From an uncultured Ruminococcus sp. (GTDB lineage Bacteria > Bacillota > Clostridia > Oscillospirales > Ruminococcaceae), in NCBI GenBank assembly GCA_947629455.1, contig CANRDT010000003.1, positions 1 to 64,000 on the forward strand: a stretch of 64,000 bases of DNA. The letters are read 5' to 3'. The stretch's first letter is position 1; each line of letters opens with the position of its first letter. The translations under genes were made by a program, and so were the position numbers. Under the pieces are notes generated by a model. That model searched no databases and was not told the DNA's origin. It worked only from the letters and a program-made list of their open reading frames with translations. Of the stretch, positions 7,834-64,000 are shown piece by piece.

Positions 7834-8105
7834 CACGGAAATCAATTTTTGATTTCCGAAGAAGTCAGAACGCTACGCTTTTAAGAGGTAAGAGGTAAGA
7901 CAATGAGCGCCTGCGGCGCATATTTTAAAATATTATTCCGCGCAGTTTTGGAAGATTTTTGTTATATTTTCCGCCGAAGGCGGAAAATATAACATTAAAT
8001 TATTTTTCCTCCGCCGACGGCGGAGGAAAAATAACACAAAAGTCAACCTGAACAAGTTAAAGTATATTAAAATGCTTACATATAATTTAAAAATTGATTT
8101 CCATG
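7834..8105. repeat. MITE-like element, chimeric copy (copy A)
   Basis: TIR CACGGAAATCAATTTTT ... AAAAATTGATTTCCATG; perfect 10-bp direct repeat AATGAAAAGC at 7824-7833 and 8106-8115; two internal palindromes (GTTATATTTTCCGCC-GAA-GGCGGAAAATATAAC and TTATTTTTCCTCCGCC-GAC-GGCGGAGGAAAAATAA). Confidence 0.85.
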
Positions 8106-28740: not shown

Positions 28741-28925
28741 CATTGAAATCAATTTTTACAAAATTGATCTTAAAAAAACAAGATTTTCAGAGACAAGAAG
28801 CAAGAAAAAAGTCTGCAAAGCGGAATAATATTTTAAAATATTCGCCGTAGGCGCTCCTTGTCTGACCTCTTACCTCTTAAAAGCGCAGCGTTCTAACTTC
28901 CGGAAATCAAAAATTGATTTCCGAG
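28741..28925. repeat. MITE-like element, type-1 copy B (inverted relative to copy C)
   Basis: Flanked by perfect 10-bp direct repeat GGCGCACGGT at 28731-28740 and 28926-28935; terminal AAAAATTGATTTCCGAG; body near-identical in reverse complement to 34841-35023. Confidence 0.85.
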
Positions 28926-34840: not shown

Positions 34841-35023
34841 CACGGAAATCAATTTTGATTTCCGTAGAAGTCAGAACGCTGCGCTTTTAAGAGGTAAGAG
34901 GTAAGACAAGGAGCGCCTGCGGCGCATATTTTAAAATATTATTCCGCTTTGCAGACTTTTTCTTGCTTCTTGTTTCTAAAAATCTTGTTTTTTAAGATAG
35001 ATTTTGTTAAAATTGATTTCCAT
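34841..35023. repeat. MITE-like element, type-1 copy C
   Basis: CACGGAAATCAATTTTGATTTCCG ... AAAATTGATTTCCAT; flanks GGGCTTAAAC (34831-34840) and CGGCTTAAAC (35024-35033), 9/10 match. Confidence 0.85.
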
Positions 35024-35110
35024 CGGCTTAAACTTTTACGCCTTGAAATGCCTGCGCTTTTATGTTATAATACAGTATATTAAATGACAGAATTTTGCGA
35101 GGTTTGAAAA

Positions 35111-37048
35111 ATGCTCCTGAGTATAGAACATATTTATAAATATTTTAACGGCGAGCCGCTGCTAAAGGATATTTCCTTTACACTTGACGACAAAGAGACC
35201 GTGGGACTTATCGGCTCAAACGGCTGCGGAAAATCCACGCTGCTCAACATTATCACGGGTTCGGAAAGCTTTGACAGGGCAGCGGACGGCATAGGTTCGG
35301 TAACTCTCTCCCCCACTGCCGCTGTAGGCTTTCTCAGACAGAACAGCGGTCTTGATTCCTCACTTTCAATAAAGGAGGAAATGCTCAGGGCGTTCGGCGA
35401 TCTGACGGAAGTCCGCAGGAGAATGACGGAACTGGAATCGGTCATGGTAAAGGAGAGCGGCGCAGGACTGAATGACGTCAACATCGAGTATTCCCAGCTT
35501 GCGGCTTATTTTGAGTCGCGCGACGGCTACCGCATGGACGTGAAGATCAGGCAGGTGCTTAACGGAATGGGTTTTGCCGAAAAGTCGGACGGGCAGATAG
35601 TTTCCACCCTTTCCGGCGGCGAAAAGACACGTCTTGCACTGGCAAAGCTGCTGCTTGAAGACCCCGATCTTCTCATACTTGACGAGCCTACCAATCATCT
35701 CGATCTCAGGACGCTTATGTGGCTGGAGGACTACCTCAAAGAATACCGCGGCTGCATACTCATAGTTTCGCACGACAGATATTTTCTCAATAAAATATGC
35801 AGCCGTATCTGCGAAATAGAAAACGGCAGGCTGACTTCCTATAAGGGCGGATATTCGGCATATCTCGTACAAAAGAAAATGGACCGCGACCGCCTGATGA
35901 AAGAATATGAATCCCAACAGAAGGAGATAGCAAAGCTGGAGGAATATGTTATCCGCAACAAGACGAGAGCCTCCACCGCTAAAATGGCAAAGTCGCGGCA
36001 GCATATGCTGGACAGGATAGAGCGTATCGAAAAGCCTGTCTTTTATGAAAAACCGCCCTCTATAAGGCTTGAATACGACATTGAGCCTACGAAAGACATA
36101 CTTAAAGTAACCGACTGCCCTGTTTGCGTCGGCGAAGGAGCGGAGCGCAAAGTCCTTGTCAGAGCTCTCGACCTGCATATCCGACGCGGCGAACACGTCG
36201 GGATAATAGGCGACAACGGCGTGGGCAAATCGACCATACTCAAACTGATACAAGGTCTTGTCCCGCGATACGGAGGAGAGATACTCTGGGGCAGGAACGT
36301 AAAAATATCCTATTTCGATCAGGAGCATAACGATCTCGACCCATACGCCACGGTAATGGAAACGGTGGACAAGCGGTTTCCCCTGCTTACTCCGCAGGAG
36401 GTACGCAATATGCTCGGCGCGGTCAGGCTGACGGGCGAAAACGTGTTCAAGCCAGTATCCGTGATAAGCGGCGGCGAAAAAGCCAAGCTCTGTTTTGCTC
36501 TTATGGCTTTTGAACGCGGCAACGTACTCATTCTCGACGAACCGACAAACCATATTGATCTCAATACCAAAGAGGTTTTGGAGGACGCTCTCGCGGAATT
36601 TAAAGGCACGGTCATAATAGTTTCCCACGACAGATACCTGCTTGACAAGACGGTAAACAGGATCGTTGAGATAAGCGCGGAGGGTGCGAGAGTATTCGAG
36701 GGAAATTTCGAGCTCTATGAAAAAACTATCCGTCAGGAACGGCTTGAATCGGAGCAGGCAGAACAGCTTGAAAAGCAGGAACGCCTTAAAGAGGAATATA
36801 TCCGCAGCAAGCAGGCAAAATACCGCTCCAAAGAACAGCGTGCCGCCGATGCGAAACGCCGCGCAAGGATAAAGGAGCTTGAAAGCGAGATAGAATCGCT
36901 GGAGGAGCGTATCGCCGAGCTTTCGGCGGAAATATCACAGCCTGAAACGGCGGCGGACTTCGCTCTGATGAGTGAAAAATGCAGCGAGCTTGAAAACTGC
37001 CGCAAAACTCTCGATGAAAAAATGGAAGAGTGGGCGCAGTTGGAATAG
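35111..37048 (+). CDS. ABC-F family ATP-binding protein
   Basis: Two ABC domains (GSNGCGKST / GDNGVGKST; LSGGEKTRLALAKLLLEDPDLLILDEPTNHLDL; ISGGEKAKLCFALMAFERGNVLILDEPTNHIDL) with charged linker and C-terminal coiled coil. Confidence 0.94.
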   Translation: MLLSIEHIYKYFNGEPLLKDISFTLDDKETVGLIGSNGCGKSTLLNIITGSESFDRAADGIGSVTLSPTAAVGFLRQNSGLDSSLSIKEEMLRAFGDLTEVRRRMTELESVMVKESGAGLNDVNIEYSQLAAYFESRDGYRMDVKIRQVLNGMGFAEKSDGQIVSTLSGGEKTRLALAKLLLEDPDLLILDEPTNHLDLRTLMWLEDYLKEYRGCILIVSHDRYFLNKICSRICEIENGRLTSYKGGYSAYLVQKKMDRDRLMKEYESQQKEIAKLEEYVIRNKTRASTAKMAKSRQHMLDRIERIEKPVFYEKPPSIRLEYDIEPTKDILKVTDCPVCVGEGAERKVLVRALDLHIRRGEHVGIIGDNGVGKSTILKLIQGLVPRYGGEILWGRNVKISYFDQEHNDLDPYATVMETVDKRFPLLTPQEVRNMLGAVRLTGENVFKPVSVISGGEKAKLCFALMAFERGNVLILDEPTNHIDLNTKEVLEDALAEFKGTVIIVSHDRYLLDKTVNRIVEISAEGARVFEGNFELYEKTIRQERLESEQAEQLEKQERLKEEYIRSKQAKYRSKEQRAADAKRRARIKELESEIESLEERIAELSAEISQPETAADFALMSEKCSELENCRKTLDEKMEEWAQLE

Positions 37049-37070
37049 TCAACACCGCTCGGCTTTCACA

Positions 37071-37290
37071 CAAGGAATTCAATTTTAAAATTTTGTGTAA
37101 GCATTTTTTATGCAGGCGGTTATATTTCATTGAATAAAGGAATCTTTTTTGCTGTTTTCCTCGCCAACGGCGAGGAAAACAGCTTTTAGTGTATATTTTC
37201 CGCCTGCGGCGGAAAATATACCCCGAAACAGACTATTTTCCCCAATGGGGGGGAAAACAGTATCCGTAAAGTTGAAAATTGATTTTCGTG
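37071..37290. repeat. MITE-like element, type-2 copy E
   Basis: Left end CAAGGAATTCAATTTTAAAATTTTGTGTAAGCATTTTTT, right end GAAAATTGATTTTCGTG; internal palindromes GCTGTTTTCCTCGCC-AAC-GGCGAGGAAAACAGC and GTATATTTTCCGCC-TGC-GGCGGAAAATATAC; degraded direct repeat at the ends. Confidence 0.75.
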
Positions 37291-37366
37291 GTCTTCACAC
37301 AATTGACTTTCGCTCAGTATAATATAATGACAGCGCGCAAAAATACGCCGTATTGGGGGTGAGATT

Positions 37367-39269: not shown

Positions 39270-39588
39270 GAAGTAAGAGGTTAGAGAAAAGAGGTAAGAA
39301 ATGCTTATTGTGACCTTGTACCGCAATAAATTCAAACCGCCCGATTTGCAAGGTCTGACCGCGCCGCACATTGCAGAGGGCGACAAGCGCGCCCGCGCGA
39401 GGGCAGACTTTTTTGTTATTTTTCCTCCGCCAGCGGCGGAGGTCCTCCCGGACGGGGCATTTCCGCCCGTCCACGGTGCATATCGATTCGCCTTTATAAA
39501 TGGGGCGGAGAAAGTTTTTTGGCATTTTGCTGAAATATACAAAATATAACAATAAGGCTAAATATACCCTCATAAATTGATTTCCGTG
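39270..39588. repeat. Degenerate MITE-like modules, copy N
   Basis: Contains AGAGGTAAG modules, TTATTTTTCCTCCGCC-AGC-GGCGGAGG, CGGAGGTCCTCCCGGACGGGGCATT and right end AAATTGATTTCCGTG. Confidence 0.6.
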
Positions 39589-39748
39589 TAGAGGCTTTTC
39601 CCATGCTAAAACAAACTCTCCGAATTACAATTTTCGTCATAATGCACAAAAATCCTGCCGCGTTTTGCCGCCGACAAGGGGAGGTTTTATACAATCTGCC
39701 GAAAAAGACGGCTGATAAAAATGACTTTTGTCTTTTCGTTCTATCCTC

Positions 39749-47226: not shown

Positions 47227-47266
47227 ATAATAAGTATTTCGTTATAACGGCGGCTGATCTTCAAAA

Positions 47267-47416
47267 TACAAATCAACTTTTCAAAAAGCTGCTATTCCAA
47301 ATGGGGATAACTTGTTTTGTGAGTATATTTTCCGCCGCAGGCGGAAAATATACACTAAAAGCTGTTTTCCTCGCCGACGGCGAGGAAAACAGCAAAAATG
47401 CTGATTGATTTAGTGG
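47267..47416. repeat. MITE-like element, type-2 copy F (degenerate ends)
   Basis: GTATATTTTCCGCC-GCA-GGCGGAAAATATAC and GCTGTTTTCCTCGCC-GAC-GGCGAGGAAAACAGC, the module order of copy E reversed; degenerate TIRs. Confidence 0.7.
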
Positions 47417-47512
47417 AATTTTACTATCTGAAAAATGCTTAATATAATTTCAAGATCTATCTCTCTACTTCGTTATAGTTACAAGAAGATAAATCCGTTC
47501 TTAAAGCCGTTT

Positions 47513-51234: not shown

Positions 51235-51425
51235 GGCATTTTTGTTATTTTCTCCCTGACGGGACAATGCGCCCCCCTGCATCGTGCGGAGCGTTATAAC
51301 CTTAGAAATCGGGCGGTCAAGGCACTTTGACATTGTGCTATTATTCCCCCACCGGGGGAATAATAGCTTGTTTCGGGTCAATATACGTTAAAAGCATTTT
51401 CCTCGCCGTTCGCGAAGAAATCAGC
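51235..51425. repeat. MITE-like module cluster, copy H (degenerate)
   Basis: TTGTTATTTTCTCCCTGACGGGACAATGCGCCCCCCTGCATCGTGCGGAGCGTTATAACCTTAGAAATCGGGCGGTCAAGGCACTTTGACATTGTGC parallels 60755-60903; CTATTATTCCCCCACCGGGGGAATAATAG palindrome. Confidence 0.6.
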
Positions 51426-54547: not shown

Positions 54548-54715
54548 GCATGGAAATCAATTTTTGATTTCCAGAAGTTAGAACGCTACGCTTTTAAGAG
54601 ATAAGAGGTAAGACAAGGAGCGCCTGCGGCGCATTATTTTTAATATTAGTTCGCTTTGCAGACTTTTTTCTCGCTTCTTGTCTCTAAAACTCATGTTTTG
54701 GGAAATCAATTCTCT
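54548..54715. repeat. MITE-like element, type-1 copy D (right end degraded)
   Basis: CATGGAAATCAATTTTTGATTTCCAGAAGTTAGAACGCTACGCTTTTAAGAGATAAGAGGTAAGACAAGGAGCGCCTGCGGCGC parallels copies B and C. Confidence 0.75.
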
Positions 54716-55082: not shown

Positions 55083-56579
55083 TCAGTCTGACCGCTCGTT
55101 TTGTATTTCAAGCAGCAGACGGATATTACTTCTGTCTTTCTCCTTTTCTTCACTGCTAAGCTCGTCATACGCAATGAGATCCATATGCACTCTTGCGGCG
55201 GCGTCCTTTCTTTTACCGTTTTCGGGAACGCCGTACCTCCAGTTATTCAGTATATGATACCTGCACCACCTTAAATGTTCCAAATTTGCAAGATATTCTA
55301 TTTTATCCTCGGGAATATCTTCATATTTTTCCGACAGCCCCATATTTTTCATCATTTGCAGACGTATTTCGTGATAATCGGCAGCGCTTATATTTGAATA
55401 TTTGGTAAAAGTATCGAGCATTCGCCATTGCGTTTCAAGATCATCATTATTAAATTCCACTTCGGAATAAATAGATGCATATTTAAGATTGATAAGCTTT
55501 GCAAGCCTCATCAGCTTGTCGTCCATAATATAATCTATATGATTCGCAGCTGACCGCCAATCCGTCAGTGTCAGATGATCATATCCCGAAAGTATTCCCT
55601 CAAAAAACGGTTCGGCTAAGAACACCGTGATCTCCTTATTCGGCAGGAGTATATTTATTTCATTTATCAGCTGTATCTGTCCGCTCTGCTCGACCAGCAG
55701 CACCATATCAGCCTTTTCTATCAGTTCCCTGCCGTCGTACCACTTTTCACCGTGCATTATCACCTTGTCGCCGATCTCTCCAAGCTCGGTGTGAACGGCA
55801 AGAAAATCTTCGCAGTCTCCGAATATATGATATGTAATTTCCTGACGCGGCGAAAAGATATTATTCAAAAGCCCGTGATAAAGCAATTCTTCGCCAAGTC
55901 GTCCAAAGCCGATCATAACAATATCGAGCTTGTGAGCCTTACTTTCAGAAAGCTTATAAATGCAGCTGCGTTTCCAGAAAAGCCGCGCCGCGATCTCTTC
56001 AATGGAATAGAGCGTTATTTCGTCGTCGATCGTCATCTGCGAACGGATAGTATCACATTTGAGATATACCCTTTTGCCGTTCAGTTTATTTTTATTATTG
56101 TAATAAAATTTTATATTTTCATTTTCGTCATATGCAAGAATATACCTTTGCGCATTGACAAAACGGTCTTTGCCGTCAATGCCGTATTTGCCGAGCTGCG
56201 AGAGAATTATACTGCCGTCCGCACCCGAACCGTATACCGCCACGCTTTTTCCCGATCTGTACAGAAAATAATTTGATATACTGTCCTTGACGTATGATAC
56301 AGCCATAATTACACCGCTTGCAGTCGCGAGCGGCGCAAGCCACCTTGCCAACTCTACCAGAATATTTCCGGGCGTGTCCCCGTAGTTCATAACGTACATA
56401 GTAAGGGTCAAAAACAGCGCGTCCTGCGGCGAGGTATCCCCCTGAATAATAAAGCCGACTGTTCCCATAAGAAACGGCAGAACGAACAACAGGCATTTTG
56501 CCGCAAAAAGCAGTTTCTTTTTCAATGACAGCTCCCCCTTTTTTAATGGAATTGTAGCATATTTCACGAAAAAAGTCAA
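55083..56579 (-). CDS. Ion-channel-like membrane protein with NAD-binding (TrkA-N-like) and RyR domains
   Basis: N-terminal TMs and pore-like segment; two Rossmann-like motifs (VAVYGSGADGSIILSQLGKYG; IVMIGFGRLGEELLYHGL); C-terminal LEHLRWCRYHILNNWRYG ... HMDLIAYDELSSEEKEKDRSNIRLLLE matches the RyR repeat pattern. Confidence 0.82.
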   Translation of the reverse strand: MTFFVKYATIPLKKGELSLKKKLLFAAKCLLFVLPFLMGTVGFIIQGDTSPQDALFLTLTMYVMNYGDTPGNILVELARWLAPLATASGVIMAVSYVKDSISNYFLYRSGKSVAVYGSGADGSIILSQLGKYGIDGKDRFVNAQRYILAYDENENIKFYYNNKNKLNGKRVYLKCDTIRSQMTIDDEITLYSIEEIAARLFWKRSCIYKLSESKAHKLDIVMIGFGRLGEELLYHGLLNNIFSPRQEITYHIFGDCEDFLAVHTELGEIGDKVIMHGEKWYDGRELIEKADMVLLVEQSGQIQLINEINILLPNKEITVFLAEPFFEGILSGYDHLTLTDWRSAANHIDYIMDDKLMRLAKLINLKYASIYSEVEFNNDDLETQWRMLDTFTKYSNISAADYHEIRLQMMKNMGLSEKYEDIPEDKIEYLANLEHLRWCRYHILNNWRYGVPENGKRKDAAARVHMDLIAYDELSSEEKEKDRSNIRLLLEIQNERSD

Positions 56580-56598
56580 GTTTTTGGGAGGGTATTGA

Positions 56599-56811
56599 AC
56601 GGAATTGAATTTTATAAGAGTGCTTTTAGTCTTATAATTATATTTCGCTCAGTCCGGCGAGATTTTTGTTATATTCTCCGCCTGCGGCGGAGAATATAAC
56701 ATTAAATTATTTTTCCTCCGCCAACGGCGGAGGAAAAATAACCCAAAAGTCTGCATTACCAAGTAAAATAAATTAAAATGCTTACATAAAATTTTAAAAT
56801 TGATTTCCGTG
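56599..56811. repeat. MITE-like element, type-2 copy J
   Basis: Ends ACGGAATTGAATTTTAT ... ATTTTAAAATTGATTTCCGTG; palindromes GTTATATTCTCCGCC-TGC-GGCGGAGAATATAAC and TTATTTTTCCTCCGCC-AAC-GGCGGAGGAAAAATAA; flanking GGTATTGA at 56591-56598 and 56814-56821. Confidence 0.8.
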
Positions 56812-56822
56812 ATGGTATTGAC

Positions 56823-57121
56823 AGGGAAATCAATTTCTTCTTTTAGGTATGTTACAGCCGCCGTAAACGGCGGCTGTAACAAATGCCGCCCCGACTAAGG
56901 GGACGCCCTCTCTTACAGGTCGTCCCCTCTTTCAAAACAGTCCACCGGACTGTTTTGAAATTCACCCCTTGCGGAGCGCAGACGGTTGGGGCTTTCGCCG
57001 TCTGCGGACGGCGACAAGGGACGCTGTCCCTTGACCCTGCAAGCCTTTTTTAGGAAAAGGCTTGACCGAAAACCTTTTCTTGATTCCGACGTTACTTCCT
57101 CCACAACTGCGGAGCGTGAAA
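56823..57121. repeat. Array of consecutive hairpins (non-coding), about 300 bp
   Basis: GTTACAGCCGCCG-TAAA-CGGCGGCTGTAAC (56851-56880), TTCAAAACAGTCC-ACC-GGACTGTTTTGAA (56931-56959), AAGGGAC-GCT-GTCCCTT (57016-57032), AAGCCTTTT...AAAAGGCTT (57041-57063). Confidence 0.8.
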
Positions 57122-63845: not shown

Positions 63846-64000
63846 CAAGGAGTTCAGTTTTGAAATTTTGTGTAAGCGTTTTTTATCTTAGGTAATTGGC
63901 AGCTTTTTTGGTTATTTTTCCTCCGCCGCAGGCGGAGGAAAAATAATTTAATGGTATATTCTCCGCTGTTAGCGGAGAATATACACCAAAAGCCGACTAT
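63846..64000. repeat. MITE-like element, type-2 copy M (truncated by window end)
   Basis: CAAGGAGTTCAGTTTTGAAATTTTGTGTAAGCGTTTTTTATCTTAGG parallels copy E left end; TTATTTTTCCTCCGCC-GCA-GGCGGAGGAAAAATAA and GTATATTCTCCGC-TGTTA-GCGGAGAATATAC palindromes. Confidence 0.75.

Follow-up and report, generated by a model that had tools for sequence, protein, structure and literature searches.

Paired hairpins with conserved stems and variable three-nucleotide loops are inner parts of a lineage-specific MITE in a Ruminococcus genome

The 64,000-nt stretch of DNA analysed here (the window), from an uncultured Ruminococcus sp., contains the same palindromic stems at several places with different trinucleotide loops, which raises the question of what keeps the arms paired while the loop changes. 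We addressed this within one draft genome (2.04 Mb, 54 contigs, 86% complete), about 1.50 Mb of which was read as stretches with mechanical gene calls. All ten stem-loops listed in a preliminary description were found, at or adjoining the positions it gave. The stems had been called fully complementary; most proved to be perfect over 14-16 bp, longer than had been reported, but some are mispaired or decayed, with one mispair in 8 of 74 hairpins of the canonical subtype and decayed or hybrid hairpins in some elements for which the end repeats were the sole basis of choice. The loop length is 3 nt exactly. A scan of 859 kb of the genome yielded 77 perfect hairpins with a stem of at least 12 bp and a 3-nt loop versus 0-10 for each other loop size, and such hairpins with a 3-nt loop were absent from a Markov shuffle of the sequence. 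Most of the listed stem-loops belong to pairs of a hairpin A and a hairpin B, whose loops lie 38-42 bp apart. The stem of hairpin A is TGTTATATTYTCCGCC or GTATATTYTCCGCC, and that of hairpin B is TTATTTTTCCTCCGCC or GCTGTTTTCCTCGCC. The feet are TGTTATA/TATAACA for A and TTATTTTT/AAAAATAA for B, followed by TTAAA or CCCAAAAG, and the short linker between A and B is TTAAA or ACTAAAA.

We found that these hairpins are not free-standing modules but lie inside a MITE bounded by inverted repeats and 9-bp duplications (Table 1). The span singled out in the preliminary description corresponds to one whole element, to the base. Terminal inverted repeats (TIRs) of 17 bp (CACGGAAATCAATTTTT) flank each A-B pair at both ends, and 109 end-repeat pairs were detected in the 1.50-Mb sample, which amounts to about a hundred copies. 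The identity of the bases just outside the ends peaked at exactly 9 bp (0.63 versus 0.27 in permuted controls, 109 pairs), and this sharp peak indicates that the entire unit has transposed and duplicated 9 bp of its target. The duplication is perfect in 24 of the 109 pairs and matches at 7 or more of the 9 positions in 54; mobility is read here from these duplications rather than from empty sites. The elements measure 62-395 bp, with a mode of 214 bp, and have no transposase gene inside, and 105 of the 109 inverted-repeat pairs are intergenic. Hairpins A and B are thus firmly identified as the inner stem-loops of a lineage-specific non-autonomous MITE, and much of the stem identity once ascribed to independent modules reflects shared descent or copy-to-copy exchange of one element.

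Table 1. MITEs and hairpins in the 64-kb window (positions in nt of the window)
Feature	Position	Strand	Remarks
Complete MITE, 272 bp	7834..8105	+	AAGAGGTAAG module in left part, then A, B; TIR mismatches 0 and 1
Hairpin A, TGTTATATTTTCCGCC	7960..7994	+	loop GAA
Hairpin B, TTATTTTTCCTCCGCC	8000..8034	+	loop GAC
Related MITE without A/B, 185 bp	28741..28925	-	
Related MITE without A/B, AAGAGGTAAG type, 184 bp	34841..35024	+	perfect 9-bp duplication GGCTTAAAC
Imperfect 9-bp duplication, GCTTTCACA / GTCTTCACA	37062-37070 and 37291-37299		flanks of the 37071 MITE
Complete MITE, 220 bp, hairpins C-A-B subtype	37071..37290	-	TIR mismatches 2 and 1; A to B reads on minus strand
Hairpin B, GCTGTTTTCCTCGCC-AAC-GGCGAGGAAAACAGC, 15-bp stem	37151..37183	-	loop GTT in element orientation; DNA fold -17.9 kcal/mol, z -8.4
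Hairpin A, GTATATTTTCCGCC-TGC-GGCGGAAAATATAC, 14-bp stem	37191..37221	-	loop GCA in element orientation
Hairpin C, imperfect, C-rich core	37231..37262	-	third stem-loop of the C-A-B subtype
Decayed mosaic copy	39412..39590	+	B left arm with AGC loop, CCGTCC module, right end AAATTGATTTCCGTG; stem-loop near 39430 half destroyed, with the 5' T-rich arm and GC core alone left
Hairpin A	47323..47353	+	loop GCA; copy with decayed end repeats (roughly 47265-47450)
Hairpin B, CTCGCC type	47361..47393	+	loop GAC
Hairpin C, perfect 14-bp stem	51337..51367	+	loop ACC; then decayed A-B region
Related MITE without A/B	54550..54715		
Complete MITE, 214 bp, main size class	56598..56811	+	TIR mismatches 2 and 0; duplication AGGGTATTG / ATGGTATTG
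Hairpin A	56667..56701	+	loop TGC
Hairpin B	56707..56741	+	loop AAC
MITE cut by window end (to 64055 in contig)	63846..64000	-	duplication CATAATGCC / TATACTGCC
Hairpin B	63912..63946	-	loop GCA (TGC in element orientation)
Hairpin A, compensated innermost pair GCT...AGC	63954..63984	-	loop GTT (AAC in element orientation)

The MITEs have mosaic interiors, in which left halves, hairpin cassettes and right tails are combined in various ways. The AAGAGGTAAG module or a CCGTCC module is present in some copies, and in two the left arm of A is joined to the right arm of B as a hybrid hairpin. One copy (C17_13434) combines flanks of the GCA/GCT cluster with a TTTTCC-GAA plus GAC cassette, indicating cassette exchange. 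A GC-rich module (CCGTCCACGGTGCATATC ... GGACGGGCGG), present at 39440-39530 and in other copies, is inserted at one hairpin arm or replaces it, and its joint lies exactly at the CTCCGCC core in several copies. The related class of MITE without A and B, represented three times in the window, combines AAGAGGTAAGAGGTAAG repeats with a GCGCC-NNN-GGCGC core, whose loop is TGC or TAC only. Related elements without A/B hairpins carry perfect duplications too, and the hairpins are therefore not needed for insertion.

No transposase with matching end repeats (ends reading CACGGAAATCAA) was identified in the 1.50 Mb of the 86%-complete draft. PF00872 and PF01609 (Transposase_mut and DDE_Tnp_1) were absent from the assembly in searches whose positive controls worked, and PF06782 (UPF0236) was absent in a search run without a positive control. 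Candidate autonomous partners at C44 (TIRs 1.37 kb apart), C6 and C12 were rejected, these being ordinary genes beside or between MITEs. Plasmid, phage and viral collections gave no match. Among the gene products of the window, a 498-aa protein (55083-56579) showed a weak RyR domain match, which is unusual for a bacterium.

We then compared the parts of 45 A-B-type elements, picked by their end repeats only so that selection by stems was avoided. The mean pairwise difference was 0.11 and 0.08 for the two arms of A and 0.05 and 0.04 for those of B; it was about 0.15 for the end repeats, 0.35 for the left body and 0.22 for the tail, and the loops differed most of all parts (0.63 and 0.58). Three clusters of near-identical copies showed 7 changes at 18 loop sites versus 25 at 432 flank sites (Fisher p 9e-5), with some of the loop and stem changes counted coming from C17_13434 and its exchanged cassette, and the resulting loop rate of about 7 times that of the flanks is approximate at this small sample size. 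In this limited form of check, loop variation exceeded that of flanking unpaired sequence, in line with the proposal that the loop is free or diversifying. Stem changes, also checked in a limited form, were compensatory to a degree above that of shuffles: both-sided changes in A (10) lay above the shuffled maximum (8), and those in B (4) equalled it (4), but 11 and 10 distinct stem rows make this modest evidence. The share of paired cells lay above every shuffle for A and B alike. Distinct perfect stem variants included TTCTCC/GGAGAA versus TTTTCC/GGAAAA, CTCC versus CTC on both sides, and GCT/AGC.

None of the 94 A/B loops started with C, and none of the 94 ended with G. Read in fixed element orientation, AAC and GTT, GCA and TGC, and AGC and GCT were each found in both directions at the same hairpin, and such reverse-complement loops co-occurred above chance (combined p 0.002, with the same frequencies randomly assigned to allowed triplets and shared descent ignored). 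This suggests that a loop may occasionally flip into its reverse complement, as template switching predicts. In yeast, template switching is reported to flip spacers of 2-5 nt in inverted repeats whose arms measure about 10 bp, with the arms left perfect (PMC8604942), and the process has been put forward as a source of RNA hairpins and a means of their upkeep (PMC8794818). Flipping was rejected as the main source of loop diversity, because the closest copies show few exact flips and their loop changes are mostly single transitions (GCT/GTT, GTT/GTC, GCA/GTA). Both parts of the earlier reading, a conserved hairpin and a free or diversifying loop, were supported, but that reading lacked the MITE context and the constraints on the loop.

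No flipping was detected in two other hairpin families with 3-nt loops, Q and D, which showed one loop orientation in all 50 and 19 copies, respectively. Family Q, unrelated to the MITE, is found at 56850-57100 and at about 50 sites in the sampled genome, and is composed of consecutive stem-loops (GGGGACGCCC.. and AAACAGTCC-ACC-GGACTGTTT) and GC-rich stems. It has paired variants (GGGGACGCCC versus GGGAAAGCGC; outer arms TTTCA, TTACC and TTTCT), and its loop is ACC in 45 of 50 copies. Family Q had no Rfam match, and looks like a structured RNA or a multi-hairpin mobile element. Family D, found at 19 sites in the sampled genome (for example C5 41972 and C9 42393), reads TTTTTATTTTAC or TTTTTCTTTTGC with loops TTC, TGC and GTT tied to the stem type, and often has a Q element at a distance of about 112 bp.

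The B core TCCTCCGCC-NNN-GGCGGAGGA was counted 55 times in the genome; among the 393 genomes of the order that were compared, one other contained it, a single time. Same-style hairpins were found in named genomes, mostly Ruminococcus and other Oscillospiraceae or Clostridia assemblies. One Ruminococcus had 7 copies of a same-style core with the loops TGC, GCA, GTT, AAC and CGC, and an uncultured Ruminococcus had such a core, with loops TAC and GTA, in at least 3 repeats resembling another inverted-repeat element. In two elements of a congener (G012), the same end repeats surround a different pair of hairpins, of which one is perfect and has a 3-nt loop (AAATTGCCGC-GCA-GCGGCAATTT), and it therefore seems that architecture rather than sequence is kept. 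A further G012 repeat, found by its arm, was rejected as a MITE hairpin, being another, imperfect hairpin repeat. An identical 35-base B hairpin (loop GTA), too long for chance, occurs just once in a genome that belongs to another family (L072 814-840 and L100). Moreover, a genome from another family of the order (G042; e.g. L041, L043, L045) contained 23 TTTTCCGCC-NNN-GGCGGAAAA hairpins, and the GC-rich repeat around them is a different one.

We propose, with a probability of roughly 0.55, that pairing in the MITE core is maintained jointly by templating of one arm on the other, by exchange of cassettes and by selection for structure, and that the loop is untemplated and fast-changing. The MITE has been inserted at about a hundred intergenic sites with 9-bp duplications, presumably by a trans-acting transposase, and each arm would template its partner whenever replication changes strand inside the palindrome. 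Copies swap whole hairpin cassettes, an exchange that is visible in the sequences and may contribute to keeping the arms paired. Elements that keep two well-formed stem-loops may also be favoured, as the same ends around different stems in G012 suggest. The 3-nt loop is the sole part with no partner arm; it mutates several-fold faster than the flanks, as judged from small numbers, and is perhaps sometimes flipped to its reverse complement. Since templating alone predicts that stems drift between copies, and hardly any drift was seen, selection or copy-to-copy exchange must be added. A more tentative and rather doubtful extension is that palindromes of 35 bp often extrude or fold in replication, so that their single-strand-exposed tips evolve fastest of all sites in the element and are flipped by template switching, with the arms repairing each other all the time.

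A recent spread of a few subfamilies, consisting of young, exchanging copies with no selection on pairing and, apart from a loop that tolerates change, no special mutational process, is an unlikely explanation of these patterns. Several clusters indeed differ by 0-3% in their flanks, the canonical stems are nearly invariant so that few pairs vary, and the mosaic copies indicate frequent exchange. However, body and tail differ by 22-35% in the same elements whose stems differ by 4-11%, loop variation lies above that of the flanks, stem changes are two-sided, and in a second species the same ends enclose different stems.

We also considered that the element acts at the RNA level, its transcribed stem-loops stopping transcription or protecting or processing messenger ends, with pairing selected and the loop free. 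The fold energies are strong, and transcripts of prokaryotic MITEs often form stable stem-loops (PMC10969869). At the 37071 copy, the plus-strand B hairpin is followed by TTTTAGTG, a terminator-like arrangement reading out of an ABC-F gene (35111-37048) whose stop codon lies 14 bp before the 5' target duplication, and a weak T-rich stretch follows the reverse-strand B hairpin in 37 of 47 A-B elements. However, the other three hairpin faces have no T tract, and the 5' arm holds T tracts and the 3' arm A tracts, which is the reverse of an intrinsic terminator. The MITEs showed no preference for gene 3' ends or convergent gaps, in tandem gaps neither orientation was favoured (12 versus 11), and their hairpins had no Rfam match at curated (gathering) thresholds. 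Termination as the main function is unlikely and was rejected on position, orientation and tract order, and an RNA-level role in general appears decidedly improbable; single copies may have local effects, as the 37071 copy suggests. Least probable of all is that the palindromes serve as a DNA site for a protein, which would recognise the duplex, the cruciform or the single-stranded hairpin and could be a nucleoid protein or, as in REP/RAYT systems, a Y1 (HUH) transposase. A dimer-bound palindrome would give conserved arms and a free centre, same-style hairpins recur in other Oscillospirales and the genome has one Y1_Tnp (C2:724-1080), near which the sample showed no A/B hairpin. However, no GTAG or CGTC tag adjoins the feet of the A/B stems, 9-bp duplications at the ends suggest a transposase of the DDE type, and the hairpins are dispensable for the insertion of related elements.

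Adjacent stem-loops that spread between intergenic sites occur in the double-hairpin elements of fungal mitochondria and the repetitive hairpin-forming elements of sponge mitochondria. Unlike the MITE, those elements are organellar. Prokaryotic MITEs such as QMITE2 of Coxiella are short, non-coding and intergenic, with TIRs and strong secondary structure, and the 9-bp duplication falls in their usual range (PMC10969869); here, in contrast, there are two separate perfect stem-loops with fixed 3-nt hypervariable loops, a mosaic interior and exchangeable cassettes. REP, BIME and REPIN elements (GTAG and CGTC families) share paired stem-loops, complementary stem variants, intergenic location, lineage-specific families and short loops of few main types, whereas their stems are 5-13 bp (PMC3733652) and ours 14-16 bp, and our hairpins have no GTAG/CGTC tag, are enclosed in a MITE with target duplications and have no linked RAYT that we found. 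Hairpins maintained by template switching show arm homogenisation and flipped spacers of 2-5 nt in perfect inverted repeats of about 10 bp or more, but as single loci across species or strains rather than as many copies in one genome (PMC8794818, PMC8604942).

It is still debated whether selection or the copying machinery itself preserves long perfect hairpins, and work on this question has usually followed single loci across species. Here one genome holds tens of copies that are nearly identical and have two perfect stems and two tagged 3-nt loops apiece, which makes the rates of stem repair, loop mutation and flipping measurable in one organism. The genome also adds a MITE family, and a hairpin core that is common in style to Oscillospirales genomes. 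If the extrusion and self-templating reading is true, the double-hairpin architecture would outlast the stem sequence, which would be replaced between species.
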